DNA from: an uncultured Flavobacteriaceae bacterium
GTDB taxonomy: Bacteria; Bacteroidota; Bacteroidia; Flavobacteriales; Flavobacteriaceae
Assembly (NCBI GenBank): GCA_947502635.1
Contig: CANNAN010000006.1
Location: forward strand, 124,001-188,000
DNA: 64,000 nucleotides
Direction of reading: 5' to 3'
The notes under the pieces were generated by a model. The model saw only the letters and a program-made list of their open reading frames with translations, was not told the DNA's origin and did not search any database. Below, piece after piece: positions 16,183-52,009 of the stretch (position 1 is its first letter; each line of letters opens with the position of its first letter). The translations under genes were made by a program, and so were the position numbers.

Positions 16183-16214
16183 ATTCGTCGACACTTAATT
16201 GCGATTCATCTACA
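16183..16214 (+). promoter_or_regulatory. Predicted LytTR operator, site A (H-NOX operon)
   Basis: ATTCGTCGACA at 16183-16193 and ATTCATCTACA at 16204-16214 are direct repeats with a 21-bp period. A -7-like TATTTTTC begins 31 bp after the site, and the ATG of the receiver gene follows at 16291. Four other promoters in the window carry the same arrangement. Autoregulation of the phosphorelay is inferred. Confidence 0.6.
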
Positions 16215-16290
16215 CTTGAATTGAGTTTAACGAAGTATCATCACTATTTTTCACTATAACGCTATTTTTACATATAGTTAAATTTATACA

Positions 16291-16704
16291 ATGAAAAATA
16301 ATTTAAAAGTACTCCTTATAGAAGATGATATGATTGAGGTTATGAAATTAAATAGAGTCGTTGCGTCTCTAAACCTTAAGTATAACATCGTAGAAGCTAA
16401 CAATGGAGAGGAAGCTCTAAAAATTTTAGAAGAAAAAGACGAATTACCTGACATAATTTTGTTAGATTTAAACATGCCAAAAATTAATGGTATGGAATTT
16501 TTGTCTATTATAAAAAAAGAAGAACGTTTAAGACATATTCCAGCTATTATATTAACAACCTCTAATAATCAAAAAGATTTATTAGAATGTTATAAGTTAG
16601 GTATTGCTGGTTATGTTCTAAAACCATTGAAATATGAAGAATATGTGTCGAAGATTGAAAAACTATTGGCCTATTGGAGTATTAACGAATTAAAACAAAT
16701 ATAA
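16291..16704 (+). CDS. Single-domain response regulator
   Basis: 137 residues, a lone receiver domain of the Rcp1 type with no output domain. The acidic pocket EDD (11-13), the phospho-acceptor D59 in LLDLNMP, T90 in ILTTS and K111 in VLKP are all present. It is the first gene of the H-NOX operon and lies 1 bp before the H-NOX gene. It may be a phosphate sink or a diffusible carrier between the kinase and the HPt protein; direct output is unlikely because there is no effector domain. Confidence 0.92.
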   Translation: MKNNLKVLLIEDDMIEVMKLNRVVASLNLKYNIVEANNGEEALKILEEKDELPDIILLDLNMPKINGMEFLSIIKKEERLRHIPAIILTTSNNQKDLLECYKLGIAGYVLKPLKYEEYVSKIEKLLAYWSINELKQI

Positions 16705-16705
16705 T

Positions 16706-17245
16706 ATGAAAGGTATTGTTTTTACAGAGTTTTTGGATTTAGTAGAAAATAAATTCGGACTTGAAATGGTGGATAAAATCATTAGCGCTTCCCATTTAGA
16801 GTCTGAAGGCATTTACACCTCTGTAGGAACCTATAAGTTTTCAGAAATGCTTCAATTACTTCAGCATTTGAGTGTGAATACAAATATTAAAATAGACGAT
16901 TTGTTACTCGTTTATGCAGAGCATTTTTTTAGTGTTTTAAAGGATAGCTATCCAGGACTTATTGCAACTTATAAAGATCCTATAGAGATGTTGGCGTCTA
17001 TTGAAGACCATATTCATGTAGAGGTCAGGAAAATTTATCCAGATGCGGAATTACCAACTTTTGAAGTTCTTGAAAAAACAGACAATACTCTTGTAATGAT
17101 TTATAAGTCCAGTAGAGCGATGCATCATTTTGGTTTAGGTTTAATGAATAAAACGTTTGAACATTTTAACTCTACAGCTACAATTGAGTTAGAAAAAATA
17201 AAAGAAGACGGCACAGAAGTTAAGTTTTTAATTAATAAAAATTAA
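16706..17245 (+). CDS. H-NOX haem nitric oxide sensor
   Basis: 179 residues, a stand-alone H-NOX domain of standard length. The proximal haem histidine lies in the DHIHVEVRKIYPDAELP segment (H102 or H104), and the haem-propionate motif YxSxR is Y133-S135-R137. H-NOX proteins in facultative or aerobic bacteria bind NO at ferrous haem and inhibit or modulate a partner kinase. The partner is the next gene, whose start overlaps this stop. Lack of a clear distal tyrosine pattern favours an NO rather than O2 sensor, but that residue cannot be assigned with certainty by eye. Confidence 0.93.
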   Translation: MKGIVFTEFLDLVENKFGLEMVDKIISASHLESEGIYTSVGTYKFSEMLQLLQHLSVNTNIKIDDLLLVYAEHFFSVLKDSYPGLIATYKDPIEMLASIEDHIHVEVRKIYPDAELPTFEVLEKTDNTLVMIYKSSRAMHHFGLGLMNKTFEHFNSTATIELEKIKEDGTEVKFLINKN

Positions 17246-19221: not shown

Positions 19222-19225
19222 TACA

Positions 19226-19543: not shown

Positions 19544-19553
19544 CCAATTTTTT

Positions 19554-20267
19554 ATGAATTGTATCATTATTGATGACGAAGCTACGGCCAGAGCTATTAT
19601 CTCACAACTCTGTACAAATATTCCAAGTTTAAACGTTCTTGAAGAGTTCTCTAATGCAATTCAAGCCATTAAATACTTAAATCAGAATGATGTAGATCTT
19701 ATTTTTCTGGATATTCATATGCCAGATTTTACAGGTTTCGATTTTATCCAGACACTAAAAAATCCGCCAAAAATAATTTTAACCACTTCGGATGCTAATT
19801 TTGCAATTGAAGCTTTTGAGTATGATTGTATTGTAGATTATTTAGTAAAACCTATTGTTTTACCACGTTTTGAAAAGGCTATACAAAAAGCAGAAGCGAC
19901 CACTTCTAAAACACCAGAAAGCATAATACCAGCAAATGCAATAGAAACAACTTCAGGCAACGATTTGTATATAAATATAGACAGGCGTTTAATAAAGCTA
20001 GATATTCCCAGTATTTATCTTATTGAAGCCAAGGGGGATTATATCAATGTAAAAACTGAAGAGAAAAATTATACAGTGCATTCCACTTTAAAAAAGATTG
20101 AAGAAAAATTACCAGATTCATTATTCCTAAAAGTACATCGCTCTTACATTATCAATATTAAAAAAATCATAGATATTGAAGACAATAGTGTACTTATTAA
20201 AAAAGATGTTATACCAGTTAGCCGCTCAAACAGACCTGAGTTAATGAAGCGTTTAAATTTATTGTAA
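19554..20267 (+). CDS. LytTR-family response regulator
   Basis: 237 residues: receiver at 1-120 with D53 in FLDIHMP and the lysine of YLVKP near 100, then a LytTR DNA-binding domain at about 135-235 (YLIEAKGDYINVKT, FLKVHRSYIINIKKI, IPVSRSNR). LytTR proteins bind two direct repeats one period of about 21-22 bp apart, next to the promoter, and usually activate. It is the last gene of the H-NOX operon, 10 bp after HPt. Five promoters in this window carry a 21-bp-period direct repeat that is the natural candidate operator. Confidence 0.93.
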   Translation: MNCIIIDDEATARAIISQLCTNIPSLNVLEEFSNAIQAIKYLNQNDVDLIFLDIHMPDFTGFDFIQTLKNPPKIILTTSDANFAIEAFEYDCIVDYLVKPIVLPRFEKAIQKAEATTSKTPESIIPANAIETTSGNDLYINIDRRLIKLDIPSIYLIEAKGDYINVKTEEKNYTVHSTLKKIEEKLPDSLFLKVHRSYIINIKKIIDIEDNSVLIKKDVIPVSRSNRPELMKRLNLL

Positions 20268-20315
20268 GCGTAAAAAAACACCTGGTTATTTCTGCAAAGG
20301 TTAAGTAGTTTGGCA

Positions 20316-20421: not shown

Positions 20422-20448
20422 AAATAGCTTAAACTTTACAAAACAACC

Positions 20449-20515
20449 ACTCGTCTACACTAAATTCTCACCTACCGAAAATTAAAATTTAAACACTTAT
20501 AGTCCTATAGCTTTG
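20449..20515 (+). promoter_or_regulatory. Predicted LytTR operator and promoter, site B (T9SS protein)
   Basis: ACTCGTCTACA at 20449-20459 and ACCTACCGAAA at 20470-20480, period 21 bp. A perfect -7 element TAGCTTTG sits at 20508-20515, 28 bp after the site, and there is no TTG at the -33 position, as expected for an activator-dependent promoter. The ATG is at 20536. Confidence 0.6.
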
Positions 20516-20535
20516 TGATATAAAATACAGATATC

Positions 20536-23115
20536 ATGAAAAAAATACTACTATTACTCGTTCTTATATATGTAGATGTATATGCACAAGACATCCCATT
20601 TAATTGCGATTATAATGCCTACTTATTCCAATACAACGATGTGTACGCTATAGATTTAGCCTCTGGAAATTCGTATACAGTTGCAACAGATATAACAGAA
20701 GGCACTGTTAACGCAACCGCATATAACCCTGCCGATGGATTTATTTGGGGGTCGCTAAGCTATCCAGCAAAATCGATAGTTAGAATAGGTAAAGACTTCT
20801 CAACCCTTACATTTTATGTAGATGAGTTACCAACTTCTGGAAGATATGTTGGTGATATTAGCGCAGAAGGCATTTATTATTTAAAAGCGGGCGGAACACC
20901 ATATTATGCAATAGACCTAAATCCAGATTCTGATAATTATGGAAATTATATAGCAACTAAGAATTTATCAAAAAGTATAAGTATTCATGACTGGGCATTT
21001 AATGCTGTAGATGGTAAATTATATGCCGTAGAAAAGAAAACCAATATATTATATCGTATAGAAGCAGAAAACGGCACCATGGAAAATTTAGGAGAAGTCC
21101 CAATCTTATCTGGCTTAAATTACACATATGGTGCCGTTTATTTTGATGCATCCGGACGTTTTTATGTGTCAGCAAATCAAACAGGAACCATTTATGTTAT
21201 TAAAAATGTTCAAGATTTAGATGGAACTAATACTATGGATTCCAATTTGTTTGCTTTCGGTCCTTCAAGTTCTCAAAATGACGGTGCGCGTTGCCCAACG
21301 GCTCCTGTACCGCAAGAAGATTGTACCAATGGTATTGATGATGATGGCGATGGTTTAATAGACTGTGAAGACCCTTCGTGTTCTGGTTATGCAGCTTGTC
21401 CTGTTATAGAGGCGCCAACATCTACTGCTAATTCAGGAGGTTTAGAAAGTAACAACAGATTGTCCGAGCAGATTAATAAAAGAAACTTTGATCGTGCTAA
21501 GAACAATTACAAATTTGATAAAGTATCCGCAAAGCGATTTACAAAATCAGCTAAATATGGTAAAAAAACAGGTAAAATCGGATTACAATTATCAGATTTC
21601 GTACCGCTAGAAATTTTAAATGAAGACCATGTTATAGAGTCGTCTCCAACAGATTTGTTAAACATTACGAATGCCACAGACATTTATTCGGTAGATTATA
21701 TGAAAGCAGACGAAGCTGTAGCATCAATTCTTGTACTTAAAACCGATAAAGGGGTTTACGAACACACTAAATATATTTGTGATAGGTTATTAGGTGCGGA
21801 GTTAATTTCTGTTTCAACTATAGAAATCAATGAACAAAAATTTATAAAAGCTTTAATTCGAAATATTGATGGCTCTCTGGAATTTGTATTGAGTTTATCT
21901 GCAAAACCGATAAATGATAATACTAACTTCGGAATTGAAAGTCATTGGAATTTAGATAAATATGAAAACAATGCGTCATTTTATAATTTCCAAATATGGT
22001 CTAATTCTTTAGATGATTTATTACGTCTTGGTGAAGAAGTTGTAAGATTATTAGATGTTCAAAAACCAGTGACCAATTATAACAATTCAACACCACCAAC
22101 GGTTTTTGTTAGAAAAGGCAAGTATCATCATGGAAAACTCGATTTAGAAATCGTTAATACGAATAGGAGTGAAGCTGTTAAGTTTGATGGTGGATTGCGA
22201 GCCACAGAAACTAATACCGTAGAGTATGTATCGTCTACTATCGATTTATATGGTAATTACATTACGAATGTAGAAGTAGATGCTGGAAATTTGTTTGATA
22301 TCGGATTTAGAATTGGTGATGGCATACAAACTCCAGATGATTTATTTATGTCTGATGGTCCTTGGGGATATGATAATGCAGCACCAACTACAGTAGTTAC
22401 CGCGTATAACATAGAATCTAATGAAGAGGAATTTAGCGATGAAGAGTTTCCTATTGAACGTAATATAGCATTAGTAGCGAACACGAGCGAATATATTGCG
22501 GCCTACAGAGCTTTAACACCTAAGTTTAACCCCATAGAGCTGTCTGCTTATAATAGCTTTCAGTTTAAAGCTAAAGGCACAGGTACTTTAATTATTAGAT
22601 TGGTAAAAGCAAGTGTCGCTAATTGGGAAGAACAATATCAAACTAGCATAGCTTTAACTAATACATTAAAAGACTATAGTGTACCGTTCTCTGAGTTCAT
22701 GTCTATTACAGGACATGATTTTGAAACTCATGATATAACTTCTATTGTATTTACCATGTTAGCAGAAACAGGTGAGATTGAGACTAAGGAAATGACTTTA
22801 CAACAATTGCGTTTTTCAACAAGTAACACACTTTCAGTAAAATCGTTGAATGATGTTGAGTTACATAAAACATTTGCGTCTCCAAACCCTATGGTGTCTG
22901 GTACAACAATACATTTTACAAGTCAGAATTCAGAACCTGTTGAGTTATTGGTTTTTAATCAATTAGGTAGTTTGGTACAAAAAATGACTTATACAGCTGT
23001 TGCTGGTAAAAATGAAATAAAACTAGAAAGAAAAGGCTTTATGGCAGGCATGTATTTCTGTAATATAAAAAGTAAAACAAAGACTTACAAAACAATTAAA
23101 TTGCTTGTAGAATAA
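20536..23115 (+). CDS. Large secreted T9SS cargo protein
   Basis: 859 residues. An N-terminal signal peptide (1-17) is followed by a propeller-like domain at about 20-260 resembling DUF6923 (NAYLFQYNDVYAIDLASG...). A calcium-loop motif NGIDDDGDGLIDCEDPSC lies near 265-285. The central region is of unknown fold. A beta-sandwich resembling carbohydrate-binding or CIA30-like domains is at about 655-760, and the C-terminus (~770-859) is a type A T9SS sorting domain (PNPMVSGTTIHF ... GMYFCNI). It should be exported, cleaved and attached to the cell surface. It follows the LytTR gene and has its own predicted LytTR site, so it is a likely adhesin or matrix protein of the NO-controlled regulon; that role is inference. 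Confidence 0.85.
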   Translation: MKKILLLLVLIYVDVYAQDIPFNCDYNAYLFQYNDVYAIDLASGNSYTVATDITEGTVNATAYNPADGFIWGSLSYPAKSIVRIGKDFSTLTFYVDELPTSGRYVGDISAEGIYYLKAGGTPYYAIDLNPDSDNYGNYIATKNLSKSISIHDWAFNAVDGKLYAVEKKTNILYRIEAENGTMENLGEVPILSGLNYTYGAVYFDASGRFYVSANQTGTIYVIKNVQDLDGTNTMDSNLFAFGPSSSQNDGARCPTAPVPQEDCTNGIDDDGDGLIDCEDPSCSGYAACPVIEAPTSTANSGGLESNNRLSEQINKRNFDRAKNNYKFDKVSAKRFTKSAKYGKKTGKIGLQLSDFVPLEILNEDHVIESSPTDLLNITNATDIYSVDYMKADEAVASILVLKTDKGVYEHTKYICDRLLGAELISVSTIEINEQKFIKALIRNIDGSLEFVLSLSAKPINDNTNFGIESHWNLDKYENNASFYNFQIWSNSLDDLLRLGEEVVRLLDVQKPVTNYNNSTPPTVFVRKGKYHHGKLDLEIVNTNRSEAVKFDGGLRATETNTVEYVSSTIDLYGNYITNVEVDAGNLFDIGFRIGDGIQTPDDLFMSDGPWGYDNAAPTTVVTAYNIESNEEEFSDEEFPIERNIALVANTSEYIAAYRALTPKFNPIELSAYNSFQFKAKGTGTLIIRLVKASVANWEEQYQTSIALTNTLKDYSVPFSEFMSITGHDFETHDITSIVFTMLAETGEIETKEMTLQQLRFSTSNTLSVKSLNDVELHKTFASPNPMVSGTTIHFTSQNSEPVELLVFNQLGSLVQKMTYTAVAGKNEIKLERKGFMAGMYFCNIKSKTKTYKTIKLLVE

Positions 23116-23138
23116 TTAATAACTACTCTAACTTCATT

Positions 23139-29087: not shown

Positions 29088-29104
29088 ATATAACATGTAC
29101 TAGT

Positions 29105-29737: not shown

Positions 29738-29748
29738 TTAATAAAGTG

Positions 29749-30399: not shown

Positions 30400-30417
30400 A
30401 TATAACATGTAACTATT

Positions 30418-31065: not shown

Positions 31066-31083
31066 ATATAACATGTAACTATT

Positions 31084-40311: not shown

Positions 40312-40379
40312 ATTCATCTACAGCAAACTGCAACTCACCGAATCTAACCAATAAAATTAAGGATTAGAATGCATCTTTA
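40312..40379 (+). promoter_or_regulatory. Predicted LytTR operator and promoter, site C (STAS/flippase operon)
   Basis: ATTCATCTACA at 40312-40322 and ACTCACCGAAT at 40333-40343, period 21 bp. A -7-like CATCTTTA begins 29 bp after the site at 40372-40379; no -33 TTG. The first gene starts at 40421. Confidence 0.55.
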
Positions 40380-40420: not shown

Positions 40421-40699
40421 ATGGCACTTAAAATCACAGAACAAAACGGCACATTTTTAGTAGAAGGAATTATTAACGCTACTACTGCAATGAATTTTCA
40501 AAATCACTTAGAGGCTATTCTAAATACTTATGGAGCTCTTACTATTGATATTGAAAAAGTAACAGGAATTGACACGAATGGTATGAATGCTTTAAGAGCC
40601 CTTTATAGCAATGCTTTAATTTATAACAGACCCTTTTATGTGGTTGGTGCAGGATGTAAAGAAATCCATGACGATTTCACTTTTACAAATGTGGCATAA
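40421..40699 (+). CDS. STAS-domain protein 1
   Basis: 92 residues, one STAS fold like anti-anti-sigma factors (LTIDIEKVTGIDTNGMNALRALYSNA). The usual phospho-acceptor pair Asp-Ser-Ser appears as Asp-Thr-Asn, so phosphorylation on the threonine is possible but unproven. It opens the operon 40421-44488. No SpoIIE-like phosphatase or anti-sigma kinase is in the window, so a partner must lie elsewhere or the protein may act as a structural switch. Confidence 0.78.
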   Translation: MALKITEQNGTFLVEGIINATTAMNFQNHLEAILNTYGALTIDIEKVTGIDTNGMNALRALYSNALIYNRPFYVVGAGCKEIHDDFTFTNVA

Positions 40700-40732
40700 T
40701 TAATACTTAGTATAAACCCAAATCTAAATATT

Positions 40733-41041
40733 ATGAACTTCGAAATTATAAACAATAGAGGCGTTTTTGAAATACACGGTCATTTTACAAACGCATATAC
40801 CAATCAAGTAGCAGATTTTTTTAATAATCTGTTAGATAGATATTATGAGATAACAATATGTCTTAAACAAGTTAAGCGTATGGATACTAAAGCTTTAAAT
40901 GTGATGCAGTTTATAACTGCTAAAGCTAAAAGACGAAGTAAAGTACTATTCATTTTAGGAAAAGATAATAAGCGTATTAAGAAGCAATTTGAAGAAGCTA
41001 ATCTAATAAACATATTTAGAGATGATTACAATAGCAAATAA
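40733..41041 (+). CDS. STAS-domain protein 2
   Basis: 102 residues, paralogue of the previous gene (ITICLKQVKRMDTKALNVMQFITAKAKRRSKVLFILG). The acceptor site is Asp-Thr-Lys, also degenerate. It overlaps the flippase gene by 20 bp. Two tandem STAS genes before a flippase are unusual; they may regulate polysaccharide synthesis after translation, an inference from position. Confidence 0.75.
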   Translation: MNFEIINNRGVFEIHGHFTNAYTNQVADFFNNLLDRYYEITICLKQVKRMDTKALNVMQFITAKAKRRSKVLFILGKDNKRIKKQFEEANLINIFRDDYNSK

Positions 41042-42278
41042 TTTAAGAAAAAGGATTTCTCCAGAGCAGTTATTTATGATAAGTGTTTTGGCTGTAAACG
41101 GTGGAAATTATTTGTATAATCTAATTCTTGGTCGTTTGCTAGGACCCGCACAGTTTGCCGATGCTGCCGTATTAATAACATTTTTATTGGTGTTGTCTTT
41201 TGTAGCGATGACGTTTCAATTAGTAACAGCTAAGTTTTCAGTACTTTTTGAAAACCAATTATTTAATAATTTCATTTCAAAAATCTATAAAAATGCTTTG
41301 ATGGTTGGTATCATCATGGGAGTTTTAATAGTTTGTTTTGCTACTCAATTACAAGAACTGTTTAATACCTCATCATCTAGTATGTTTGTAATATTTGGTT
41401 GTGGGGTGCCATTATACTTTTTAATGAGTGTGAATAGAGGTGTTTTTCAAGGAAAAAAAGCGTTTAAATCATTATCTATAACATATCAATTGGAAATGTT
41501 AAGTCGTTTGTTATTCACTTTGGTTTTAATCTTTTTGTTTAACATACAATCCTCAGTAGTTATTGCGTTTGGTATTTTAATCTCTTTCGGGTTTGGTTTA
41601 ATACCCTTTAAATCTCAGTTAATTAATTTTAAATCAAAATTAAAAATAGAGACTACACAGGCTAAACAAGTAAAACACTTTTTTATATTGACTGCTTTTT
41701 ACGAGTTAACACAAATCATCATTAATAATAGTGACATTCTTTTGGTAAAACACTATTTTGAATCTTATGAAGCAGGTTTATATGCTTCTTTAGCTTTAAT
41801 AGGACGCATTGTTTATTTTATTGCCTGGATGTTCGTAATGTTATTATTACCAACAGTAGTACAACTTAAAAAAGAAGGTAAAGAAACAGCATCAATATTG
41901 TTTAAGTACGTTGGCTATATCGCGGCCATCTCAATAACCATTGTTTTAGCATGTTTAAGTTTTCCAGAAACGATTATTAAATTATTGTTTGGAGAGCATT
42001 ACATAGCTATGGCATCACTTTTATGGAAATATGCTATTGCAACAAGTATGTTTGCTATTTCTAACATATTTGCATATTACTATTTGTCTTTAGATAAGTA
42101 TGTACCAGTTATTATATCTGGTGTGTTTGGAATGCTACAAATGGGCCTTGTAATTGTATACCATAATAGTTTGGAACAAGTGGTACATATGCAAATAATA
42201 GCTATGGTCTTATTATTAGCTATTCAAATAGTTTTTTTCAAAGCAGATATATTAAAAGATAAAAAATCTAGTTCATAA
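41022..42278 (+). CDS. Polysaccharide flippase (Wzx/MOP superfamily)
   Basis: 418 residues with 12 hydrophobic segments. The N-terminus NGGNYLYNLILGRLLGPAQFADAAVLITF is the typical first repeat of oligosaccharide flippases. It moves lipid-linked glycans across the inner membrane. The start codon inside the previous gene and the length fit. It lies in the operon between STAS and flavin enzyme genes, supporting surface-glycan synthesis. Confidence 0.85.
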   Translation: MITIANNLRKRISPEQLFMISVLAVNGGNYLYNLILGRLLGPAQFADAAVLITFLLVLSFVAMTFQLVTAKFSVLFENQLFNNFISKIYKNALMVGIIMGVLIVCFATQLQELFNTSSSSMFVIFGCGVPLYFLMSVNRGVFQGKKAFKSLSITYQLEMLSRLLFTLVLIFLFNIQSSVVIAFGILISFGFGLIPFKSQLINFKSKLKIETTQAKQVKHFFILTAFYELTQIIINNSDILLVKHYFESYEAGLYASLALIGRIVYFIAWMFVMLLLPTVVQLKKEGKETASILFKYVGYIAAISITIVLACLSFPETIIKLLFGEHYIAMASLLWKYAIATSMFAISNIFAYYYLSLDKYVPVIISGVFGMLQMGLVIVYHNSLEQVVHMQIIAMVLLLAIQIVFFKADILKDKKSSS

Positions 42279-42426
42279 TACTTTTCTTTCACTATTGCGT
42301 TTTGTCGTTAAAAAAAGACCTTATAAAGATTTTTGTTTTGTGTTTAGATGTATTTTCGCTTTTTTTTGTAGGTTTTTTGTCATTGTTTGTATTTTGAAAT
42401 TTCTCAAAACACTAACAACATATAAT

Positions 42427-42960
42427 ATGAACAATCTACCTGAGGAATATATTTCAGAATATGTTTCGAAAAAAATCTTTGATTTTAATTTACAAGAAAA
42501 CTTTTCAATTGCCTACAAGTTATCAATGGCCTCATCATTATTAACGCCTCACCTAATTATGGCTTTTGGCGATATTTTTGTGATTGAGGATAAGAATACA
42601 GAAAACCTTGAAGCTGCAAATTTTTATTATAGAGAATCATCAATTTTTCAAACCTGCTCAAAGACTAAAATCTTAGAGGCTAGTTTAAAAATATCAAAAA
42701 AACATTTACCTAAAGCACTTATTAATGATTTAAGAAATACTACGATTCCTTTTGGTAAACTATTAACGAAATATAAGATAAAAGTAGACGTAAAAGACCA
42801 CAAAATATGTATGCATAGAGATGTGGCTAATTCTAGTACACGAATAGGACGAAGCTTAAAAATATATGAAAAACAAAGTAATGTAATTATTGCTTTTGTT
42901 AGAGAATTATTTGTTCCCGAAAAAGAATTATCACGTGCTAAAATATATATAAACTCTTAA
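42427..42960 (+). CDS. Chorismate-lyase/UTRA-fold-like protein, unknown
   Basis: 177 residues from the ATG at 42427. A longer frame begins at 42295, but its first 44 residues are basic and phenylalanine-rich, unlike the rest, and overlap an ordinary intergenic leader, so the internal ATG is preferred. The pattern NTTIPFGKLLTKYKI followed by GRSLKIYEKQSNVIIAFVRELFVPE resembles the UbiC/UTRA fold (PLG-x-L, then the closing RE-x-F-x-P strand). If so, it may bind or make an aromatic acid. The match is by eye only and the call is weak. Confidence 0.6.
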   Translation: MNNLPEEYISEYVSKKIFDFNLQENFSIAYKLSMASSLLTPHLIMAFGDIFVIEDKNTENLEAANFYYRESSIFQTCSKTKILEASLKISKKHLPKALINDLRNTTIPFGKLLTKYKIKVDVKDHKICMHRDVANSSTRIGRSLKIYEKQSNVIIAFVRELFVPEKELSRAKIYINS

Positions 42961-42970
42961 AAGAATAGGA

Positions 42971-44488
42971 ATGTTTGATAGTATTATAATTGGTTCTGGA
43001 CCTGCTGGAATCGTGGCTTTAAAAGAATTACTAGAACAAGACATTAAGAATGTAGTATGTTTAGAGAAAACCTCTAAAATTGGAGGTACTTTTTCACATT
43101 CTTACGATAATCTAAAACTAACATCATCTACCACTTTTAGTATGTTTTCAGATTTTTGGATTGGAGATAATGCAAATGATCATTTTTGGTCAAAAGAAGA
43201 AGCAGTGAATTATTGGAATAATTATTCAGAACATTTTGGTATTAAAAAGTATATTAATTACAACAGTGAAGTCACTAAAATAGTTGATAAAAAAAGACAT
43301 TGGGAATTAACAACATCTACAGGTAAAGTGTTTTTAGCAAAAAATGTCATTTTAGCTTTAGGCAATAATCGAGTGACTAAATTTCCAGATTGGAAAAGTG
43401 ATTTAAGTAAAATAAAATACACCCACTCATCATCTTATAAAAATGCTGATAGATTTAAAGGAAAAAGAGTTCTTATAGTTGGAGGCGGAGAATCTGGTTC
43501 GGATATCGCTTACGAAATTTCTGCTGTTGCCAGTAAAAGCTGGGTAAGTTTAAGGAATTCCACAGGATGGGTTGTTCCCAGAAAAAGAGGTGATATTGCT
43601 GCCGATAATTCTACCCATAGGGGCATATGGAATTTACCAAAGTCGCATGGCCCTAGATTAAGTAAAAGATTAAACAAGAATGAATTATCTAAAAAAGACC
43701 CTGTTTTTGATACTGTTGTCATGTTAAACAAACTGGCTCAGACAAAATACGGGTTAAGAGGCATTTATGGAACAAAAACACTTTCGCTACCTAAGGCCAT
43801 TGCAGAAAATGGTTGTGAACTTGTTAAGGAAGTTGTTGAGATTGATGACATGAATAATACGATTAAAACATCGGATAACAAAATATTGGAAAATATTGAT
43901 GAAATCGTCTTCTGTACTGGGTATAAAAATGAAATAAAGATGTTGCCTGAGCAATATCAAAAGGTGAATCCAAGGGAATTATATAAACATATGATTCATC
44001 CAGATTTATCAGACCGTATTTTTTGGTTAGGATTTGCAAGACCAGGGTTTGGAAGCCAATTCCCGATAATGGAAATGCAATCAAGATTAATGGCACTTAT
44101 TATTTCAAAAAAGCATAGTCTTCCTTCTAAAATAGAGATGAAAAAAACAACTCTTATAGATACTTATGAAAACCTGGAACGTTTTCAGGAAAATGGATAC
44201 AATATAAAAAGTCTTGTCGATTATCATAGCTATATGGACGATTTGTCTCAGGTTATTGGATGTAAACCTCCACTAAAAAAACTTTTCTTTACTAAACCTA
44301 AATTATGGTTTAAAGTGTTTTTAGGCCCTACCCAAGCCACTCAGTTTAGGTTAAAAGGTCCAGGAAAGAAAACAGAATTAGCCCAAGATATTATTTATAA
44401 ACTCCCTAAAGTAAAATATAATAACATAATAAAAGAGGGAATTAAAGGGCGTATTCATTATGCTATGCCTTGGAACAACTCTAAATAA
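42971..44488 (+). CDS. FAD-dependent monooxygenase (FMO-like)
   Basis: 505 residues. FAD-binding GSGPAG at 8-13, an IGGTFSHSYDNLKLTSS segment after the second strand, and an NADPH-binding GGGESGSD near 172-179 are the flavin monooxygenase layout. A conserved FCTGYKN motif lies near 318. It follows the UbiC-like gene by 10 bp and ends the operon. Modification of an aromatic or lipid-linked precursor is possible; no substrate can be assigned. The position in a glycan operon is unusual. Confidence 0.8.
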   Translation: MFDSIIIGSGPAGIVALKELLEQDIKNVVCLEKTSKIGGTFSHSYDNLKLTSSTTFSMFSDFWIGDNANDHFWSKEEAVNYWNNYSEHFGIKKYINYNSEVTKIVDKKRHWELTTSTGKVFLAKNVILALGNNRVTKFPDWKSDLSKIKYTHSSSYKNADRFKGKRVLIVGGGESGSDIAYEISAVASKSWVSLRNSTGWVVPRKRGDIAADNSTHRGIWNLPKSHGPRLSKRLNKNELSKKDPVFDTVVMLNKLAQTKYGLRGIYGTKTLSLPKAIAENGCELVKEVVEIDDMNNTIKTSDNKILENIDEIVFCTGYKNEIKMLPEQYQKVNPRELYKHMIHPDLSDRIFWLGFARPGFGSQFPIMEMQSRLMALIISKKHSLPSKIEMKKTTLIDTYENLERFQENGYNIKSLVDYHSYMDDLSQVIGCKPPLKKLFFTKPKLWFKVFLGPTQATQFRLKGPGKKTELAQDIIYKLPKVKYNNIIKEGIKGRIHYAMPWNNSK

Positions 44489-44582: not shown

Positions 44583-44746
44583 GATTTATAGTGTTTCGGT
44601 TTTGCATCACGAATTATAAGAATCTGGTTTGTTCTCTACCAAATCAACCTCATAGGTTTACTGTTTTATTAGCTTCTATTTATTCATTATTAGATGATTA
44701 TGGCTTTAATACTAATTAAAAAAGAGCTAATCTAAAGAAAATTACC

Positions 44747-44814
44747 ATTCGTCTACAGTAAATGTTGACCTATCTACAACCACCCATTTTTAGGATTTAA
44801 AAGCTGCAATTTTA
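44747..44814 (+). promoter_or_regulatory. Predicted LytTR operator and promoter, site D (GT4)
   Basis: ATTCGTCTACA at 44747-44757 and ACCTATCTACA at 44768-44778, period 21 bp; this is one of the two best-matched repeat pairs. A -7-like CAATTTTA begins 29 bp after the site at 44807-44814. The ATG is at 44840. Confidence 0.62.
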
Positions 44815-44839: not shown

Positions 44840-46054
44840 ATGAAACTAGCAATCGTAACAGCATATCCGCCGAGTAAAGTCACTTTAAATGAATATGCTT
44901 ATCATTTAGTAAAACACTTCAGACAGAAAGAAGATATTACAGAACTTGTATTATTAACAGATACTACCGAAGGTAAAAAAGATATTAAGTTTACCGAAGC
45001 TGGTTGTAAAATAACAATTAGAGCATGTTGGACTTTTAATAGCTATAAAAATATTTTTAGTGTGACTAAAGCTATTAATGAAACGGCGCCAGATGCTGTA
45101 TTATTCAATCTTCAGTTTATGAAATTTGGCGACAAAAAAATAGCTGCAGCTTTAGGGTTGATGTTGCCACTGGTTTGTAAGCTAAAAAAAATACCAAACA
45201 TTGTTTTATTACATAATATATTAGAAGAAGTTGACCTGGGAAGCGCTGGGTTTACCAACAATAAAATGATGCAGAAAATCTACGGATTTATAGGAAGTAT
45301 GTTAACACGATTAATTCTTCAAGCCGATGTGGTTGCTTTAACAATGCAAAAGTATGTTGATATTCTAGAAGATAAATACCATGCCAAAAATGTAAAACTC
45401 ATACCACATGGAACGTTTGAAATTCTTGAAGAACCCAATTACGATATCCCTTTACAACCTTTCAAAGTGATGACTTTTGGGAAATTTGGAACCTATAAGA
45501 AAGTAGAATCATTAATTGAAGCCGTTGAAAGTATTAAAAAGCATTCAAATTTAAACTTAGAAGTAGTTATAGCAGGAACAGATAATCCTAATACACCAGG
45601 ATATTTAGAGTCTGTAGAAAAGACCTATAGTCATGTAGAAGGGGTAACTTTTACAGGTTATGTTGAAGAACAGGATGTACCAAAATTGTTTAAAGAAAGT
45701 GCGCTTGTGGTGTTTCCTTATACGTCTACAACAGGAAGTTCTGGTGTTTTACATCAAGCTGGGAGTTATGGTAAGGCTGTGGTTATGCCAGACTTAGGAG
45801 ATTTAGCTTTATTAGTAAAAGATGAAGGTTACAAAGGTGAATTTTTTGACCCAACGAGTGTAAACAGTTTAGCTTTAGCTATTCAAAAGATTCTTGAAAA
45901 CAATGCTTATAGAGTCGAGTTGGAAAAGGCAAATTATAAAGCAGCAACAGCCTATCCAATGTCTAAAATTGCAGAGATGTACTTAAACACATTTGAGTCT
46001 ATAGCTTATAAAAAGAAAGGAGTAAGCTTACAAAAAGAACAAGCTATTGCTTAG
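44840..46054 (+). CDS. Glycosyltransferase family 4
   Basis: 404 residues with the GT-B fold. The N-terminal domain begins MKLAIVTAYPPSKV; the C-terminal nucleotide-sugar domain shows FGKFGTYKKVESLIEA, FTGYVEEQDVPKLFKES and the E-x7-E-like region VVFPYTSTTGSSGVLHQAGSYGKAVV. Here the usual first Glu is replaced by a Thr/Ser-rich loop, as in some GT4 members. It should add a sugar to a growing lipid-linked glycan at the cytoplasmic face. It is a single-gene unit under site D and its 3' end overlaps the convergent glycoside hydrolase gene by 11 bp. Confidence 0.88.
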   Translation: MKLAIVTAYPPSKVTLNEYAYHLVKHFRQKEDITELVLLTDTTEGKKDIKFTEAGCKITIRACWTFNSYKNIFSVTKAINETAPDAVLFNLQFMKFGDKKIAAALGLMLPLVCKLKKIPNIVLLHNILEEVDLGSAGFTNNKMMQKIYGFIGSMLTRLILQADVVALTMQKYVDILEDKYHAKNVKLIPHGTFEILEEPNYDIPLQPFKVMTFGKFGTYKKVESLIEAVESIKKHSNLNLEVVIAGTDNPNTPGYLESVEKTYSHVEGVTFTGYVEEQDVPKLFKESALVVFPYTSTTGSSGVLHQAGSYGKAVVMPDLGDLALLVKDEGYKGEFFDPTSVNSLALAIQKILENNAYRVELEKANYKAATAYPMSKIAEMYLNTFESIAYKKKGVSLQKEQAIA

Positions 46055-47561
46055 AGATATATTTATAAGCGGGTTTAGTCTCTCCCTTTTGGTTTATAAA
46101 TCCGAAATACTCTTGAGTCCGCTTATGCCAAGGAAGTCGTCCAACGACTTCCTTTGGTATTTCAACAAAATCATAAAGTGTCCAAGACATGAATGATATC
46201 TCATTTTTACTAAAAATACTTTGCGCTTGTTCATGATATTCTGCCTGATCATCCTCTGAATGCCCAAAAGGATTCCAAAATCCTTTATATGACGACATTC
46301 CAAATTCAGTAATTGTTATAGGTTTATTGGGTATGTCACGTTTTAGGTTTTGATATGTTTTTTCTAAATCATCCAGATTTTCATAATAATGAAAGGATAT
46401 AAAATCTAGTTTGTCTTTTAGAATTGGTGCACTTTCAGCATCAGACCAACCAATGGTGATAGGATGTTTCTGGTCAATAGATTTTACCAAAGCGATCATG
46501 TGATCTAACCATGCAATTACTAGCTGTTGACCACGGGATTCAAAATCTAAATTTGGTTCGTTTTTAATATCCCAAGCCAATAAAGCGTTGTGGTCTTTTA
46601 AAGTAGAAACGATGGTTTCTGCGTGACGTTGATTTAATGTCCAGTCCAATACCGAATAATCACCATAAAAATCAAATAATGTTACGAGGACTTTCAATTC
46701 ATGTGTTTCAGCCAGATCTAATACTTGAGTAAGTTTTTTTAGTTTTTCGGTGTTGACATTCGCTTTCCCAAAATCTTCATAAGGCACAAAAATTCGAATA
46801 CTATTAAGTTGCGCTTCTTTAATGAGCCTGAAATCTTTTGAGATAACCTCAGCATCAAAAGTATCACCAAACATATCCCAAGGTGTTGCTTGCGGATAGT
46901 AATTAATGCCTTTTAGTGTTGTTATTTTCCTCAAAGCAGGGGCAAGGTCTTCTTTATAATTATGTGTATCTTTTTTTATGATATGTCTAATACGCCAAAA
47001 ACCATCTTCTAATAGTAAAATGATTTTATAGGTTGATTTTTCTTCAGTCTCTATAATGATATTTTCATTTTCATAAATACGTTTATATTCAATAACATTT
47101 TTATCGGTTATTACGACTAGTTGACCATCTTCACTAAAAAAATCTAGGGTAGGGTGGTGCTCTAAAGTAGTGCTTTCAATAGAGATGTTTTCCGAGGCAT
47201 TGTGTACAATAATATTAAAAATATTTTTACGGGCACTTTCTGTATAATAATCGTCAACGCCTTCTGTTTTATTGGTTTTGTAGGCTATATGCTTAACATA
47301 CCAAGCATCTAAATAATCATTTTCAATAGCATTTAAGGTTTGCGCATCCATAGGGCGTCCTTCATTATTTAAAGGGGACCATATTATTTTAGGGAGGTAC
47401 TGATCTATTTTCTTAATTTCTGTATGTAGCATAGCACTCCTGTCTGCTCCCGTATTAAGATAACTGTATAAACTACTAATCCCAAAGACGACTAACGCAA
47501 TGATAGCCACATAAGAAAGCATTAAAATGATACGTAGTATGTTCTTATTAATACGGATCAT
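46044..47561 (-). CDS. Membrane-anchored glycoside hydrolase, GH5/clan A type
   Basis: 505 residues. One N-terminal TM helix (10-32), a linker-like domain at 40-205, then a TIM-barrel at 215-500. The clan A acid/base is E335 in WDIKNEP and the nucleophile E419 in TITEFGM; FHYYENLDD near 390-397 is also typical. It probably cleaves beta-linked glucan or mannan at the outer face of the inner membrane, as trimming enzymes in glycan synthesis loci do. It is last of a three-gene minus-strand operon and overlaps the gene before it by 4 bp. Confidence 0.85.
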   Translation of the reverse strand: MIRINKNILRIILMLSYVAIIALVVFGISSLYSYLNTGADRSAMLHTEIKKIDQYLPKIIWSPLNNEGRPMDAQTLNAIENDYLDAWYVKHIAYKTNKTEGVDDYYTESARKNIFNIIVHNASENISIESTTLEHHPTLDFFSEDGQLVVITDKNVIEYKRIYENENIIIETEEKSTYKIILLLEDGFWRIRHIIKKDTHNYKEDLAPALRKITTLKGINYYPQATPWDMFGDTFDAEVISKDFRLIKEAQLNSIRIFVPYEDFGKANVNTEKLKKLTQVLDLAETHELKVLVTLFDFYGDYSVLDWTLNQRHAETIVSTLKDHNALLAWDIKNEPNLDFESRGQQLVIAWLDHMIALVKSIDQKHPITIGWSDAESAPILKDKLDFISFHYYENLDDLEKTYQNLKRDIPNKPITITEFGMSSYKGFWNPFGHSEDDQAEYHEQAQSIFSKNEISFMSWTLYDFVEIPKEVVGRLPWHKRTQEYFGFINQKGETKPAYKYISKQ

Positions 47562-48769
47562 AGTTTTATATTTTGATATGTTTTTTCGATACCAGCAGTT
47601 TCTATTTTAAAAGTATAGGTGTTCTTTGGAAAACTATCAAGATTTAGTTTGAAGCTCGTATAGCCTTCAAATGAACTTTTATAAAGTGTTTTAATTTTTA
47701 TATCATTTTGATAAACATGTAGTTTTACTTCTAAACCATCAGGAATCATTTGGTTCATAAAACTTTTTAAAGGCCCGATGGTTAGCGTTCGGTGATTTTC
47801 AGAAAAATCAACCTGAAAATCTAAAACAGCCTGTTTGTAAACTAATGAGATACTGTCACTTTCTGCCATGCCCTCTATAAAGGCTTTAATTTCCCAAATA
47901 TCTTGATGGTCTGGATGGATCATTTTGGCTGTAGCTATGCCATTAATTGTACTCCCAGAGGTTTTAAGCACATGGTTTGAAGCATTATTAATAAAGAAAT
48001 CTACATAAGTGCCATCACTAACGATGTTATCATATCGGTCTTTTATAATAGTAGTTGAAAAGTTTGTTATTTGATTACCATCTGCATACTCGTGATTACG
48101 ATTATAAGTTATCATAAAATTGGTTGGAATTGCTGGTAGTACATTAACATCATATTCTTTTGAGTTTTTACCCAAACACTCTGAACTGATAAGTATTCTC
48201 CCTGTTTTGGTTTCAGAATAGATATTTTTATAACTGATACCATTTTTCATGTAAATAGTATCATGACTTTCGTTTGTCAAAAATTGATGCTTTACAGAAA
48301 TTTGGGTGCTGTCTTTTAAAGGATTATCATAAGTATCTGTTGGAATAACAACTAACATCGTGTAATCTATTCCCCCAGCTTCAATACTTGGTGGACCTAA
48401 ATAGCTTTCCATTGTTAATACTTCCTGTTTTGAGTATATGTTTAACTTACCAGACAATGGCATATCACTTAAAAATTTCCAGTGTATCATTCCTGTTTTA
48501 TTACCAAATGATTTTGGGATTAGGTAACTTAAAAAACTTCTTTTAATAATTGGTTTTAGAATTATAGATCCATAGCTATTGCTCAAATATAAATTGGGTT
48601 TAGAATCATTATTAGCAGAAAACTTTAAAACAATATCACTTCCTGCTTCAAATTCGGTTTGAGTCGTTAGTAATTGAAATACACTATTAATTTTCACAGG
48701 TTTTATAGACGCCGTGAATGATAATGATATCATTATTAATATGAATAAATATGTAGATTTTAATCTCAT
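47558..48769 (-). CDS. Secreted protein with Ig-like (invasin-type) domain
   Basis: 403 residues with a signal peptide (1-20). Mature parts are beta-rich; residues ~230-305 (TNFSTTIIKDRYDNIVSDGTYVDFFI...GSTINGIATAKMIH) match the Big_1 Ig-like pattern, with a weaker copy near 130-200. There is no sorting domain or lipobox. It sits between the GT-C and hydrolase genes with no gap, so it likely works in the same periplasmic complex. Specific function unknown. Confidence 0.72.
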   Translation of the reverse strand: MRLKSTYLFILIMISLSFTASIKPVKINSVFQLLTTQTEFEAGSDIVLKFSANNDSKPNLYLSNSYGSIILKPIIKRSFLSYLIPKSFGNKTGMIHWKFLSDMPLSGKLNIYSKQEVLTMESYLGPPSIEAGGIDYTMLVVIPTDTYDNPLKDSTQISVKHQFLTNESHDTIYMKNGISYKNIYSETKTGRILISSECLGKNSKEYDVNVLPAIPTNFMITYNRNHEYADGNQITNFSTTIIKDRYDNIVSDGTYVDFFINNASNHVLKTSGSTINGIATAKMIHPDHQDIWEIKAFIEGMAESDSISLVYKQAVLDFQVDFSENHRTLTIGPLKSFMNQMIPDGLEVKLHVYQNDIKIKTLYKSSFEGYTSFKLNLDSFPKNTYTFKIETAGIEKTYQNIKL

Positions 48770-51700
48770 TTAATTCGGGTTTCCTATGTAACTGTTTATT
48801 TCAATTTTTATAAACTTATAGTTCGGGGTGTCTATAGGTTGTAGTTTAGTATGTGTTTGGTTTTTTATTCTATTCGGCACTATTTTATTTGAAATAGCTT
48901 CATTTGGCAAACCGTTTACAAAGCAATTTGTCATATCATCACTTATCACGAATATGCTATGATCTTTTAAAATCTCATATTCAAAAGCTTGTTGTCGTTG
49001 TTGCCTGATACCTTCTTGTAAAAACAAATGATCGACCCAAATCATATTTTTATTGGTATCATAGTAGGTGAATAATAATTGTGGGATGGTTATTTCGTTT
49101 AATCCAGAATTAAATAACTTTCCGCTAATCATATTTGGAGACAAGTCTAAATCACTTAGAGTTGCTTTTTTATATAAATCTGAACCTGAAACATTACCAG
49201 CAACCTGCAAGTTAAATTTAGTAGGTTGTCCATGAAACTCAACAGGAGTAAATTCATCTGGGTTGAAGGTTTTCGGAATAGAATCTTGGGTTTTAGACCA
49301 GGCAATGCCTTCAAAATTGATTTTAAAAGAACTCACTTCTTTTGGCATTAATTTATGCTTTACATGATATTTGGCGTTGAAGCTTGCTAATTCTTCATCC
49401 TTATCATTGTACAAGGTCCCTTTTAAAACCACATCGGCTGGTACATTGTCTATATTTTGGATTTCACCTATAAGTGCATAGCTATTATGATATTTTATCA
49501 ATTTGGCTGAAAGCACCTCTAAAACAGGTTGTTTTAAAACATCTTCATGATGTGTTTGTTCTGTGGTAATACGTCTGCGTCCTTGATTAAAATAGCTCGT
49601 AGTATTGTCTGAGTACAATTGATCTGGGGGTAAATCTAAATCAATAGCTTCTGGCTGAATAAACCACTTACCATTTAACTTAATCAATGATTTATAATCT
49701 GTTTTATTGATTTTCTCTAAAGGGGTTATCCAATCGGTATGCACTTTTACCGTTGCTAAATGATCTGTTTTATTGGTTATTACGGTTTCTATAGCATCTA
49801 ATTTTGCATAAGAGCTTAATAAACCATCGGTTACCGAAATTTCTAACATATACTGGGCAATTGGCATATTGCTTTCTGGGTTAATCAGGCTATGCGCTTT
49901 TTCAAATTCCTTAAAATCAAGCGCATCGTAGTAAGCCATAATCGCATTTTCAGGGGAATAATGTGCATCGTTTTTAATGTAAAACTTATATATTCCAAAA
50001 CATATAGCAATAGCCAGAAAAACAGACCAGATATGTGTTGTTTTAAGAAGCCCTTTTGAAAACTGAGTGTAATTATTTTTAAATTTTAAATATTCTGGAA
50101 TCGGTTTAATTCTCGTTTTTAAAGCACGAATCCATAACCATTGAATGTTTAGTATAAATGCTATAATAACCGTTAAAAAGGGGACAATCCCCCAAAGGAT
50201 TTTTTGCCATGTGGCAACATCATCTTTTGGCAAAATAGAAGATATGGGTGGAATGTTTAACTTTTCCCATACCAGAATGCCATTTTCTAACTGTCTTAAA
50301 CGCTGCCATCCACAGAAATACAAGATAGGGTCGTAAAACTTATCATTAGAAAAAATATACTTAAGGTGATATTTTTCTGGTGTAGTTAAGAATTGTTGCA
50401 AAGAGCCAATACCTTCAATGCCTTTAAATTTAGAATTCTCTAAACGCTCAATAGGTCTTGTGGTGAGTTCTGGTAACCGCCTTGCCGAATGGTAATTACC
50501 ATCTACACTCATGGCATTCGTTTGAGCAGATAACCAAGCCATTTGATCTCCAAAACCTAAAGTCATATAACGCCATTGGTCATGTTGATCCTGATTGAGA
50601 AAATTAACAATAGGCAACATCTTTATTTGCTGAGGTTGTGATGGTCTAAAATAGCCTAAACTCATGGTGAAAACAGTCATGAATATAAATAAACTGGCTA
50701 GTAATCCGCCAACAATGCGATGATAAATAGCCCCAAACCTTTCCTGAATTAAAATTTTTAAATCACCTTCAGCAAAACGATATGTAAACTCACCAAAAAG
50801 AGGTAATGACATGATGGAAGCCCAAAGCGTAAAACGGTCGAGTGTTAAAATATTAAAAGCAGTGTCTCCTAATACCAGTTTTGGAATAAATGTTGTACCA
50901 CCTGTTCCTAAAATGAATAATATGGTTATAGATAAACCAAAAAATAAATAGCGCTTACTATAATATCTATAAAAAATATAGGGGAGGAGTATAAGTAAAA
51001 TTCCCCAAGGAATTAAGAAGAATACCAAACCAGAAGAAGTGATTTCTAAAAAATTATCACGAGACCCATGTGGAATAGGTACTTGAGTGATGGGATTGTT
51101 TTTAGAATTTATCCAATAGGGTAGAATACATCCAACAATAATAACCAAAGAAAGCATTCCAAAACTTATAATGCGTTTAAAAAGCTTAAAAAAGTTCCTT
51201 AAAAAAACTTTAAATGTAACAGCTTTAATAGCATCAACCTGTTCTTTAGAGGCATCCATAATAACCAGACCTATTAAAGGGAAAATAAAGAACACCATAC
51301 CAAATATAGGCGTTACATGATGTGATGTTACTGTAACTGCTATTAAGGATAAAGCTGTTAAGAGATAGCGATACTTACCTGTTTTTATCCATAAGTAGAT
51401 TTCTGGTAGCGCATGCATTAAAATAGAAATACCTATAATACTTGGTAATTGTCCGAAGACGTGTAAGGTCTCCACAAATGATGACGATAATACAGCGAGT
51501 ATAGCGGCATAACCAGCAGCAGTTTTATTTGAAGTCATTAATAAAGCGAATCGGTAAACTCCAGTTATAAATAGTATAACACTGATAATTGCTACCGTGA
51601 ATAACCCAAATTTTAATCCCCCAATAAAAGAAAATGCTGCGATGGCCTGATGTACTAATGGCGGATAACTCATTACTGTAAAGCCTGTATACCATTTATA

Positions 51701-51859
51701 ATTCCATGGTTCGAACCAGCTGTTGGCATAATGATCTGCAAAAAACAAGTGTATTAGTGCATCATAGGTCGTCTCTAAAGTAAAGAATATAGAAGTCCCG
51801 TGAAATACCAATCCAAAGAGTAAAGCAACAATTAAATATTTATTAGACTTTTCTTTCAT
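48770..51859 (-). CDS. Large GT-C-like integral membrane protein (PTPS-related membrane family)
   Basis: 1029 residues. About 11-12 TM segments at 8-400 and two more near 565 and 615, then a periplasmic C-terminal part of ~380 residues. The first periplasmic loop has TYDALIHLFFADHY (D33, H37, D42), the acidic motif of GT-C glycosyltransferases that use polyprenyl-phosphate sugars. It resembles the membrane family annotated as 6-pyruvoyl-tetrahydropterin synthase related. It probably adds a sugar on the outer face, using the donor made by the divergent GT2 at 52035. It heads the operon 51859 to 46044; a weak single half-site of the LytTR type (51907-51917, minus strand) is nearby. Confidence 0.75.
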   Translation of the reverse strand: MKEKSNKYLIVALLFGLVFHGTSIFFTLETTYDALIHLFFADHYANSWFEPWNYKWYTGFTVMSYPPLVHQAIAAFSFIGGLKFGLFTVAIISVILFITGVYRFALLMTSNKTAAGYAAILAVLSSSFVETLHVFGQLPSIIGISILMHALPEIYLWIKTGKYRYLLTALSLIAVTVTSHHVTPIFGMVFFIFPLIGLVIMDASKEQVDAIKAVTFKVFLRNFFKLFKRIISFGMLSLVIIVGCILPYWINSKNNPITQVPIPHGSRDNFLEITSSGLVFFLIPWGILLILLPYIFYRYYSKRYLFFGLSITILFILGTGGTTFIPKLVLGDTAFNILTLDRFTLWASIMSLPLFGEFTYRFAEGDLKILIQERFGAIYHRIVGGLLASLFIFMTVFTMSLGYFRPSQPQQIKMLPIVNFLNQDQHDQWRYMTLGFGDQMAWLSAQTNAMSVDGNYHSARRLPELTTRPIERLENSKFKGIEGIGSLQQFLTTPEKYHLKYIFSNDKFYDPILYFCGWQRLRQLENGILVWEKLNIPPISSILPKDDVATWQKILWGIVPFLTVIIAFILNIQWLWIRALKTRIKPIPEYLKFKNNYTQFSKGLLKTTHIWSVFLAIAICFGIYKFYIKNDAHYSPENAIMAYYDALDFKEFEKAHSLINPESNMPIAQYMLEISVTDGLLSSYAKLDAIETVITNKTDHLATVKVHTDWITPLEKINKTDYKSLIKLNGKWFIQPEAIDLDLPPDQLYSDNTTSYFNQGRRRITTEQTHHEDVLKQPVLEVLSAKLIKYHNSYALIGEIQNIDNVPADVVLKGTLYNDKDEELASFNAKYHVKHKLMPKEVSSFKINFEGIAWSKTQDSIPKTFNPDEFTPVEFHGQPTKFNLQVAGNVSGSDLYKKATLSDLDLSPNMISGKLFNSGLNEITIPQLLFTYYDTNKNMIWVDHLFLQEGIRQQRQQAFEYEILKDHSIFVISDDMTNCFVNGLPNEAISNKIVPNRIKNQTHTKLQPIDTPNYKFIKIEINSYIGNPN

Positions 51860-51941
51860 TAAAATGTAAGCTGTTTTCTACGAATTAAAGATATGATAAA
51901 GTTTTGTATCGACGAGTGGTATTTATCGAAGTAAAATTTTC

Positions 51942-52009
51942 ATTCGTCTACACAACGTTTACAACCAACGAATTACCCCATAAAAAGGGGCTAATCGCTA
52001 CTACTTTTG
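51942..52009 (+). promoter_or_regulatory. Predicted LytTR operator and promoter, site E (GT2)
   Basis: ATTCGTCTACA at 51942-51952 and AACCAACGAAT at 51963-51973, period 21 bp. A perfect -7 element TACTTTTG lies at 52002-52009, 29 bp after the site, with no -33 TTG. The ATG is at 52035. Confidence 0.6.

Follow-up and report, generated by a model that had tools for sequence, protein, structure and literature searches.

A conserved 21-bp direct repeat at five Flavobacteriaceae promoters, a candidate operator for a LytTR regulator encoded with H-NOX

Five promoters in a 64,000-nucleotide stretch of DNA from an uncultured Flavobacteriaceae bacterium (the window, meaning the whole stretch that was analysed) are marked by a direct repeat with a 21-bp period. 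The favoured reading, held with a probability of about 0.8, is that this repeat is the operator of a LytTR response regulator (19554-20267), which would stand at the end of an H-NOX phosphorelay and activate a local regulon of polysaccharide genes and a gene for a surface protein exported by the type IX secretion system (T9SS). The five tagged promoters probably form one switch for surface-sugar and surface-protein genes, because many related species retain the tag along with a regulator gene that lies beside a sensor of nitric oxide (NO). As the preliminary description of this DNA had proposed, LytTR is the candidate binder, an assignment that is well supported at the level of sequence by operator geometry, a half-site resembling that of AlgR, a site in the promoter of the regulator's own operon, co-occurrence both across the family and within genera, and the persistence of the motif where H-NOX is missing. 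The NO receptor of animals has its bacterial relative in H-NOX. If the reading is true, it ties NO to the surface properties of marine bacteria, defines an operator and a regulon for Flavobacteriaceae, and opens a conserved polysaccharide locus to functional tests.

The repeat and its promoters

The preliminary description had placed two half-sites upstream of each of five transcription units (A to E), with a start-to-start distance of 21 bp. All ten half-sites are confirmed, with that distance in every pair (Table 1). The close fit to AYYYRYCKAMW that had been claimed for all of them holds for sites A-D, which match AYYYRYCKAMW-N10-AYYYRYCKAMW with 0 mismatches, and is weaker for site E, with 2. 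A scan of the window found no zero-mismatch pair at any other gap from 0 to 30. Ten simulated windows (order-2 Markov) yielded 0 pairs at one mismatch or fewer and 6 in total at two or fewer, versus 8 at two or fewer in the real window, namely A-E, two weak upstream pairs at D and E, and an unrelated pair at 33727. Weak extra half-sites are present at 44726 and 51921, one 21-bp period upstream of sites D and E.

At the scale of the genome (5,439,710 bases, or 5.44 Mb, in 81 contigs) the motif is not equally frequent at other positions. A stricter form of the pattern gives 8 matches at two mismatches or fewer, with A-D at 0 and site E plus three positions outside the window at 2, while the reversed pattern gives 4 matches. 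A refined 34-bp pattern at three mismatches or fewer returns exactly A-D, missing site E, with 0 matches for its reversed control, and a matrix for which 194 sites of relatives served as the training set scores A at 45, B at 41, C and D at 40 each, and E at 23, the three outside matches remaining below 8. The motif is therefore a local signal, since exact matches in the whole genome are confined to A-D and outside matches are no more numerous than those of the reversed control; the five sites are spread over 36 kb. A genome-wide regulon was rejected on the same comparison (3 matches beyond the window versus 4 for the reversed pattern), in tests that are pattern searches at three mismatches or fewer, which strongly divergent sites could escape.

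The architecture of the promoters emerges from 80 named loci of relatives, counted with close relatives included and unthinned. Around 206 strong half-sites in these loci, examined from 8 to 60 bp on both sides, a second half-site starts at +21 in 119 cases, at +22 in 6, at +10 in 9, and at +42 in 10; any remaining downstream distance has at most 3, and -21 has 27. The comparison gives a consensus half-site of CC-ATTCRTCKACA, with CC preceding the first half-site and a weak third half-site at +42, and a 21-bp repeat (two DNA turns) in two or three copies.

Bacteroidota promoters are of the -33/-7 type. Downstream of 119 sites, matches to TAnnTTTG at one mismatch or fewer peak at +59/+60 (56) and at +80 to +82 (34); the background, measured over +100 to +189, has a mean of 0.67 and a maximum of 5 per offset. 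Counted over distinct promoters having a site, the best -7 box falls at +59/+60 in 21/30 promoters of unit B (at +80 in 9), at +60 in 20/32 of unit C, and at +59/+60 in 20/23 of unit D. In unit A it falls at +80 to +82 in 34/71 and at +79 in two more, with 20 elsewhere and 15 without a box. A third half-site of at least 4 bits is present in 38/71 A, 9/30 B, 1/32 C, and 0/23 D promoters. These offsets place the start of the -7 box about 39 bp beyond that of the last half-site, and an extra half-site shifts the box by one period.

The -7 boxes of the preliminary description keep their positions in promoters B-E. That of promoter A had been placed at 16245 (TATTTTTC) and most likely lies at 16263-16270 (TATTTTTA), given the peak of the relatives' A promoters; each of these two candidates has 1 mismatch. 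The absence of a TTG at -33 spacing, which had been counted in four of the five, extends to all five window promoters once the box of promoter A is reassigned. Among sites of relatives, TTG occurs at -33 spacing in 3/58, and at one spacing only. A promoter without a -33 element usually needs an activator, and activation is favoured over repression for this reason. The fixed phasing of the sites fits activation as well. That LytTR would mainly repress, by covering the -33 region and blocking polymerase, is unlikely, although about 28 bp separate the end of the last half-site from the -7 box downstream, which places that end close to the -33 region, and CoxC, as described in the available part of PMC11347149, sets a precedent as a repressor of the LytTR kind whose three repeats cover the -35 element.

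Conservation and co-occurrence with the regulator gene

The sites are conserved upstream of orthologues of the targets that had been listed before: the phosphorelay itself, the T9SS protein, the STAS/flippase operon, and the two glycosyltransferases. For 22 relatives, the DNA around the LytTR orthologue or a motif match was read with a matrix derived from nothing but the five sites of the window, a site being accepted if it scored at least 16 bits and lay no more than 350 bp upstream of the gene on the same strand. Sites precede 18/21 orthologues of unit A, 12/13 of B, 9/13 of C, 11/21 of D (where some genomes hold two copies), and 6/7 of E. Altogether, 56/75 target promoters carry a site versus 0/57 for eight neighbour genes, and the reversed matrix finds none upstream of either set. 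The flippase gene, which usually comes later in unit C, has an upstream site in 3/17 cases, while the 1029-aa gene (0/15) and the 691-aa TPR gene (0/17) have none on their own strand in these relatives.

The 80 named loci contain 280 sites by the window-site matrix versus 15 by its reverse. The site of unit A is present in 71/78, upstream of the gene for the 137-aa receiver, and that of unit B in 31/53. Mechanical open reading frames (ORFs) of at least 80 aa cover about 88% of the DNA of these loci and hold 23 of the 280 sites. Of the rest, 234 precede a gene that points the same way, 4 precede only a gene of reverse orientation, and 19 are elsewhere between genes. Twelve of the 15 reversed-matrix matches are within ORFs. 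A simpler search of 60 relatives, at one mismatch or fewer, found the pattern in 22 and the reversed pattern in 1. In the ranking of named relatives of the LytTR gene, the top three comprise two from Flavivirga and one from another Flavobacteriaceae bacterium. A chance repeat was rejected on the simulations, the reversed-pattern and reversed-matrix controls, and the neighbour-gene controls; the tests on the 80 loci and on neighbour genes already refute it, and chance or non-regulatory repeats are extremely improbable.

Across the family, 397 genomes were drawn and searched for the LytTR orthologue (E at or below 1e-80) and the motif (one mismatch or fewer), which were found in 153 and 133, respectively, with the reversed pattern in 8. 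Two orthologues missed by the threshold, in G104 (60% identity) and G213 (split in two), were added, which changed the table of LytTR with motif, LytTR only, motif only, and neither from 119/34/14/230 to 120/35/13/229. These genome counts are non-independent, and kinship is reduced only in the within-genus test, in which the motif is commoner in LytTR-bearing members in 21 of 32 genera with both genome kinds, rarer in 0, and tied in 11 (p = 9.5e-7). Beyond the family the gene becomes sparse: an order-wide draw of 296 genomes has a LytTR match in 24, of which two belong to other families (53% and 47% identity). As a separate observation, two adjacent LytTR homologues share one locus in L117 of G034 (10039-11590) and in G164 (C1:1376298-1378238).

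Co-occurrence alone cannot name the binder, and the motif could belong to a different DNA-binding protein co-inherited with the locus. The window's only LytTR gene does end the site-A operon, as described before, and is one of 20 LytTR matches in the host genome. A different binder is nevertheless improbable. The site-A operon was found to encode no DNA-binding family other than LytTR, the half-site is AlgR-like, and no such site was found at the 8 loci read among the other 19. Moreover, G009, of the same genus, keeps LytTR paralogues at 40-43% and has neither orthologue nor motif. Sites are also found at a distance from LytTR. Eighteen further regions, read with the trained matrix at 12 bits, contain 31 sites in all versus 0 for the reversed matrix. 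Distant clusters of strong sites beside receiver-like and GT2-like genes (L234/L235 in G238, L236/L237 in G320) are possibly a further regulon locus, and a polysaccharide locus with sites is more than 1.7 Mb away in G133, and is on a separate contig in G333, which belongs to the same genus as G133, and in G210. The distant loci of G238, G320, and G133 argue for a trans-acting factor.

Several observations weigh against a LytTR regulon of this form. Most sites are close to LytTR, so some or even much of the co-occurrence reflects a single inherited locus. At one mismatch or fewer, the motif is missing in 35/155 LytTR genomes and present in 13 without a detected orthologue, against 5 for the reversed control; G139 has a weak site and H-NOX with no detected LytTR orthologue. 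Site A is absent in 7/78 named loci (six of these seven being the last six by similarity ranking), site B in 22/53, and site D at 10/21 orthologues. At the promoters, -7 boxes are imperfect in C and D, and a smaller TAnnTTTG-like peak of 17 matches is found at +33/+34. Finally, 7/18 further regions have no site at 12 bits. Six of these, in G022, G205, G260, G379, G414, and G385, have polysaccharide genes apart from LytTR, and the seventh, in G213, has LytTR beside the polysaccharide genes, with the unit-A promoter outside the stretch read.

In five of these genomes (G022, G260, G414, G205, and G379; L240-L244), Hpt genes adjoin the polysaccharide locus and LytTR is elsewhere. Kinase genes are beside that locus within the stretch read in G205, G260, and G414, not in G022 or G379. 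H-NOX is near it in G022, G205, G260, and G379, G414 being outside the H-NOX search. The phosphorelay seems to be split between two places in these genomes. A further observation concerns L238 of G104, which carries identical site copies at 12442, 12680, and 12918, spaced by exactly 238 bp, downstream of the LytTR orthologue; this triplet is a tandem duplication carrying the candidate operator.

The H-NOX phosphorelay and known systems

The H-NOX gene follows the first gene of the operon, and the histidine kinase gene adjoins it as the next one. In the named loci, matches to the kinase (at any coverage), Hpt, and LytTR are found in 80/80, and H-NOX in 77/80, two of the three misses being on contigs cut short upstream. 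H-NOX was tabulated for 369 genomes, taken as the first 369 of the 397 (to G400), an assignment that all 137 H-NOX positives fit: 130 have both H-NOX and LytTR, 7 H-NOX only, 16 LytTR only, and 216 neither. Where the two genes part, the motif follows LytTR, being present in 12/16 genomes with LytTR alone and in 1/7 with H-NOX alone (p = 0.019). The single exception is G082. Its contig C9 (21150-22172) has an in-frame TAG in the H-NOX frame with the motif upstream, and its best LytTR match has at most 42% identity; the region is perhaps a decaying copy of the operon.

According to the favoured reading, H-NOX would sense NO and set the activity of the adjacent PAS histidine kinase, from which phosphate would pass by way of the single-domain receiver and Hpt to LytTR. 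Phosphorylated LytTR dimers would then bind the repeats, stand in for the -33 contact, recruit RNA polymerase, and activate the promoters. The output would comprise autoregulation, the polysaccharide export and assembly locus (STAS pair, flippase, GT4, and GT2), and the T9SS-secreted surface protein; gene families suggest that this output concerns surface glycan and matrix. An NO input to the LytTR circuit is a good inference from the place of H-NOX in the operon in 77 of the 80 loci and its presence in 130/146 LytTR genomes, both of which count against a main input other than NO, as do norB and putative nitrate reductases close by. A tentative, less likely alternative keeps the same regulon and assigns its main input elsewhere, with H-NOX in a subsidiary role and something else, such as redox or oxygen, sensed by the kinase's PAS domains, or with another kinase feeding the receiver. 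The 12/16 genomes that retain motif and LytTR without H-NOX agree with it, as does the kinase itself, which has several PAS stretches and is matched in some relatives only in separate pieces.

No GGDEF match was found in the host genome at E of 0.001 or below, a threshold at which 8/14 control genomes match, and the usual cyclic di-GMP (c-di-GMP) output therefore seems unavailable. If the favoured reading is true, a LytTR output in a bacterium lacking any detectable GGDEF protein would give NO a distinct route to the control of matrix. A broader proposal, at about even odds, is a family-wide, c-di-GMP-free circuit of Flavobacteriaceae from NO to transcription, with H-NOX driving LytTR as the activator of genes for polysaccharide and T9SS surface proteins, in which the number of 21-bp half-sites would set the strength or order of the promoters, with each extra half-site shifting the -7 box by one period.

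SypG, the regulator of the syp polysaccharide genes in Vibrio fischeri, is to our knowledge not a LytTR protein. The HnoX-HahK-SypF-SypG/syp pathway otherwise resembles the arrangement proposed here in having H-NOX beside a kinase, an Hpt step, a DNA-binding regulator, and a polysaccharide target (PMC12369376, in its available part); it differs in that HahK feeds a network of several kinases, while here there is one operon with Bacteroidota promoters and a LytTR output. The H-NOX-kinase pathways of Shewanella and Vibrio share the phosphorelay from H-NOX and a histidine kinase and end in c-di-GMP enzymes, unlike the transcriptional output proposed here (PMC8738867, in excerpt). The same excerpt describes bacterial H-NOX outputs as mostly c-di-GMP or quorum sensing. 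In other H-NOX/kinase pairs NO lowers kinase activity, according to the available parts of PMC8738867 and PMC12369376; by analogy, NO probably turns this kinase, and hence the target genes, down.

The repeat itself follows the rule for LytTR proteins, which bind direct repeats of about 9 bp that are 10-13 bp apart (PMC11347149, in excerpt), and the 21-bp half-site period fits that spacing. The half-site CCATTCGTC equals the AlgR core CCGTTCGTC, as given in the excerpt of PMC4064291, at 8/9 positions. AlgR of Pseudomonas aeruginosa is likewise a LytTR response regulator with exopolysaccharide gene targets, though its sites are not always fixed-spacing repeats and may be far upstream (PMC4064291, same excerpt), unlike the 21-bp arrays beside the -7 box. 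RcoM and CoxC have operators of three direct repeats (PMC11347149, in its available part) and are comparable in their two or three direct repeats, 10-13 bp spacers, and gas-linked control. They are one-component carbon monoxide sensors (same source), whereas a separate H-NOX and phosphorelay are present here. Among the matches listed in the open-licence literature (titles and abstract starts), no paper treats a regulon that joins H-NOX to LytTR or a LytTR operator of Bacteroidota. Each element is known already; what is new is the proposed control of a flavobacterial LytTR regulon by an H-NOX phosphorelay.

Gene content of the units and their surroundings

Table 1. Sites, -7 boxes, and genes of the five units in the window
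Feature	Position	Strand	Remarks
Site A	16183..16235	+	half-sites 16183, 16204, weak third 16225 (3 mismatches); candidate operator of the H-NOX/LytTR operon
Likely -7 box, promoter A	16263..16270	+	TATTTTTA; offset +80 from site start
Single-domain response regulator, 137 aa	16291..16704	+	PF00072
H-NOX (haem NO-binding) protein	16706..17245	+	PF07700, 134 bits
PAS-rich histidine kinase, 658 aa	17245..19221	+	PAS, HisKA, HATPase_c
Hpt phosphotransfer protein, 105 aa	19226..19543	+	invariant His55
REC-LytTR response regulator, 237 aa	19554..20267	+	PF00072, 66 bits; PF04397, 77 bits; proposed binding protein
Site B	20449..20480	+	half-sites 20449, 20470; 0 mismatches, conserved
-7 box, promoter B	20508..20515	+	TAGCTTTG
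Secreted protein, 859 aa, DUF6923 and T9SS C-terminal sorting domain	20536..23115	+	unit B
TPR protein, 691 aa	38193..40268	-	divergent from C, without own site; PgaA/BcsC exporter matches below cut-off
Site C	40312..40343	+	half-sites 40312, 40333; 0 mismatches, conserved
-7 box, promoter C	40372..40379	+	CATCTTTA; 2 mismatches
STAS protein (92 aa), STAS-like protein (102 aa), flippase (418 aa)	40421..42278	+	PF01740, PF13440; unit C
Site D	44747..44778	+	half-sites 44747, 44768; 0 mismatches, conserved
-7 box, promoter D	44807..44814	+	CAATTTTA; 2 mismatches
GT4 glycosyltransferase	44840..46054	+	PF00534; unit D
Glycoside hydrolase (505 aa), 403-aa and 1029-aa proteins	46044..51859	-	conserved polysaccharide-locus genes without own site
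Site E	51942..51973	+	half-sites 51942, 51963; weaker, 2 mismatches to consensus; conserved
-7 box, promoter E	52002..52009	+	TACTTTTG
GT2 glycosyltransferase	52035..52859	+	PF00535; unit E

The H-NOX protein, in which we take H102 to be the haem ligand, is identical to chain 6bdd at 152/179 positions in an alignment that covers all 179 residues. This chain is the Kordia algicida H-NOX in the available part of PMC7356049; the PDB listing gives it a different molecule name. The Hpt protein was identified on several grounds. Its Pfam Hpt match is below the cut-off, His55 is invariant in an alignment of 21 sequences, and the structure model (pLDDT 95) has Hpt domains as its best Foldseek folds, with TM up to 0.76 and all E values at least 0.16. 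The listed ORF of 138 aa begins upstream, inside the kinase gene.

In unit C, the second, STAS-like protein of 102 aa has a TIGR00377 match below its cut-off. The flippase is followed by a 221-aa protein and then an FMO-like enzyme; these two genes fill the interval between flippase and GT4 (42295-44488) and have no match in the maps of relatives. Among the genes between units D and E, the 403-aa protein has a weak Ig-like match and the 1029-aa membrane protein a weak match to PTPS_related; the fold model of the latter (mean pLDDT 47) was too poor and was not used. A Pel-like cluster was considered for the polysaccharide genes and set aside, no family match in general scans pointing there.

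An Rrf2 regulator and norB are divergent from site A, and molybdopterin oxidoreductases at 6759-10280 and 61019-63346 are read as nitrate reductases. Between units B and C (25138-31734), a PAAR/Het-C-domain protein precedes a tandem array of five paralogues, each about 215 aa long, the first with a DUF7738 match just below cut-off and the other four 76-87% identical to it. This interval is only a few kb in several relatives of the same genus, and the PAAR/Het-C protein with its array looks like a secreted toxin with immunity copies.

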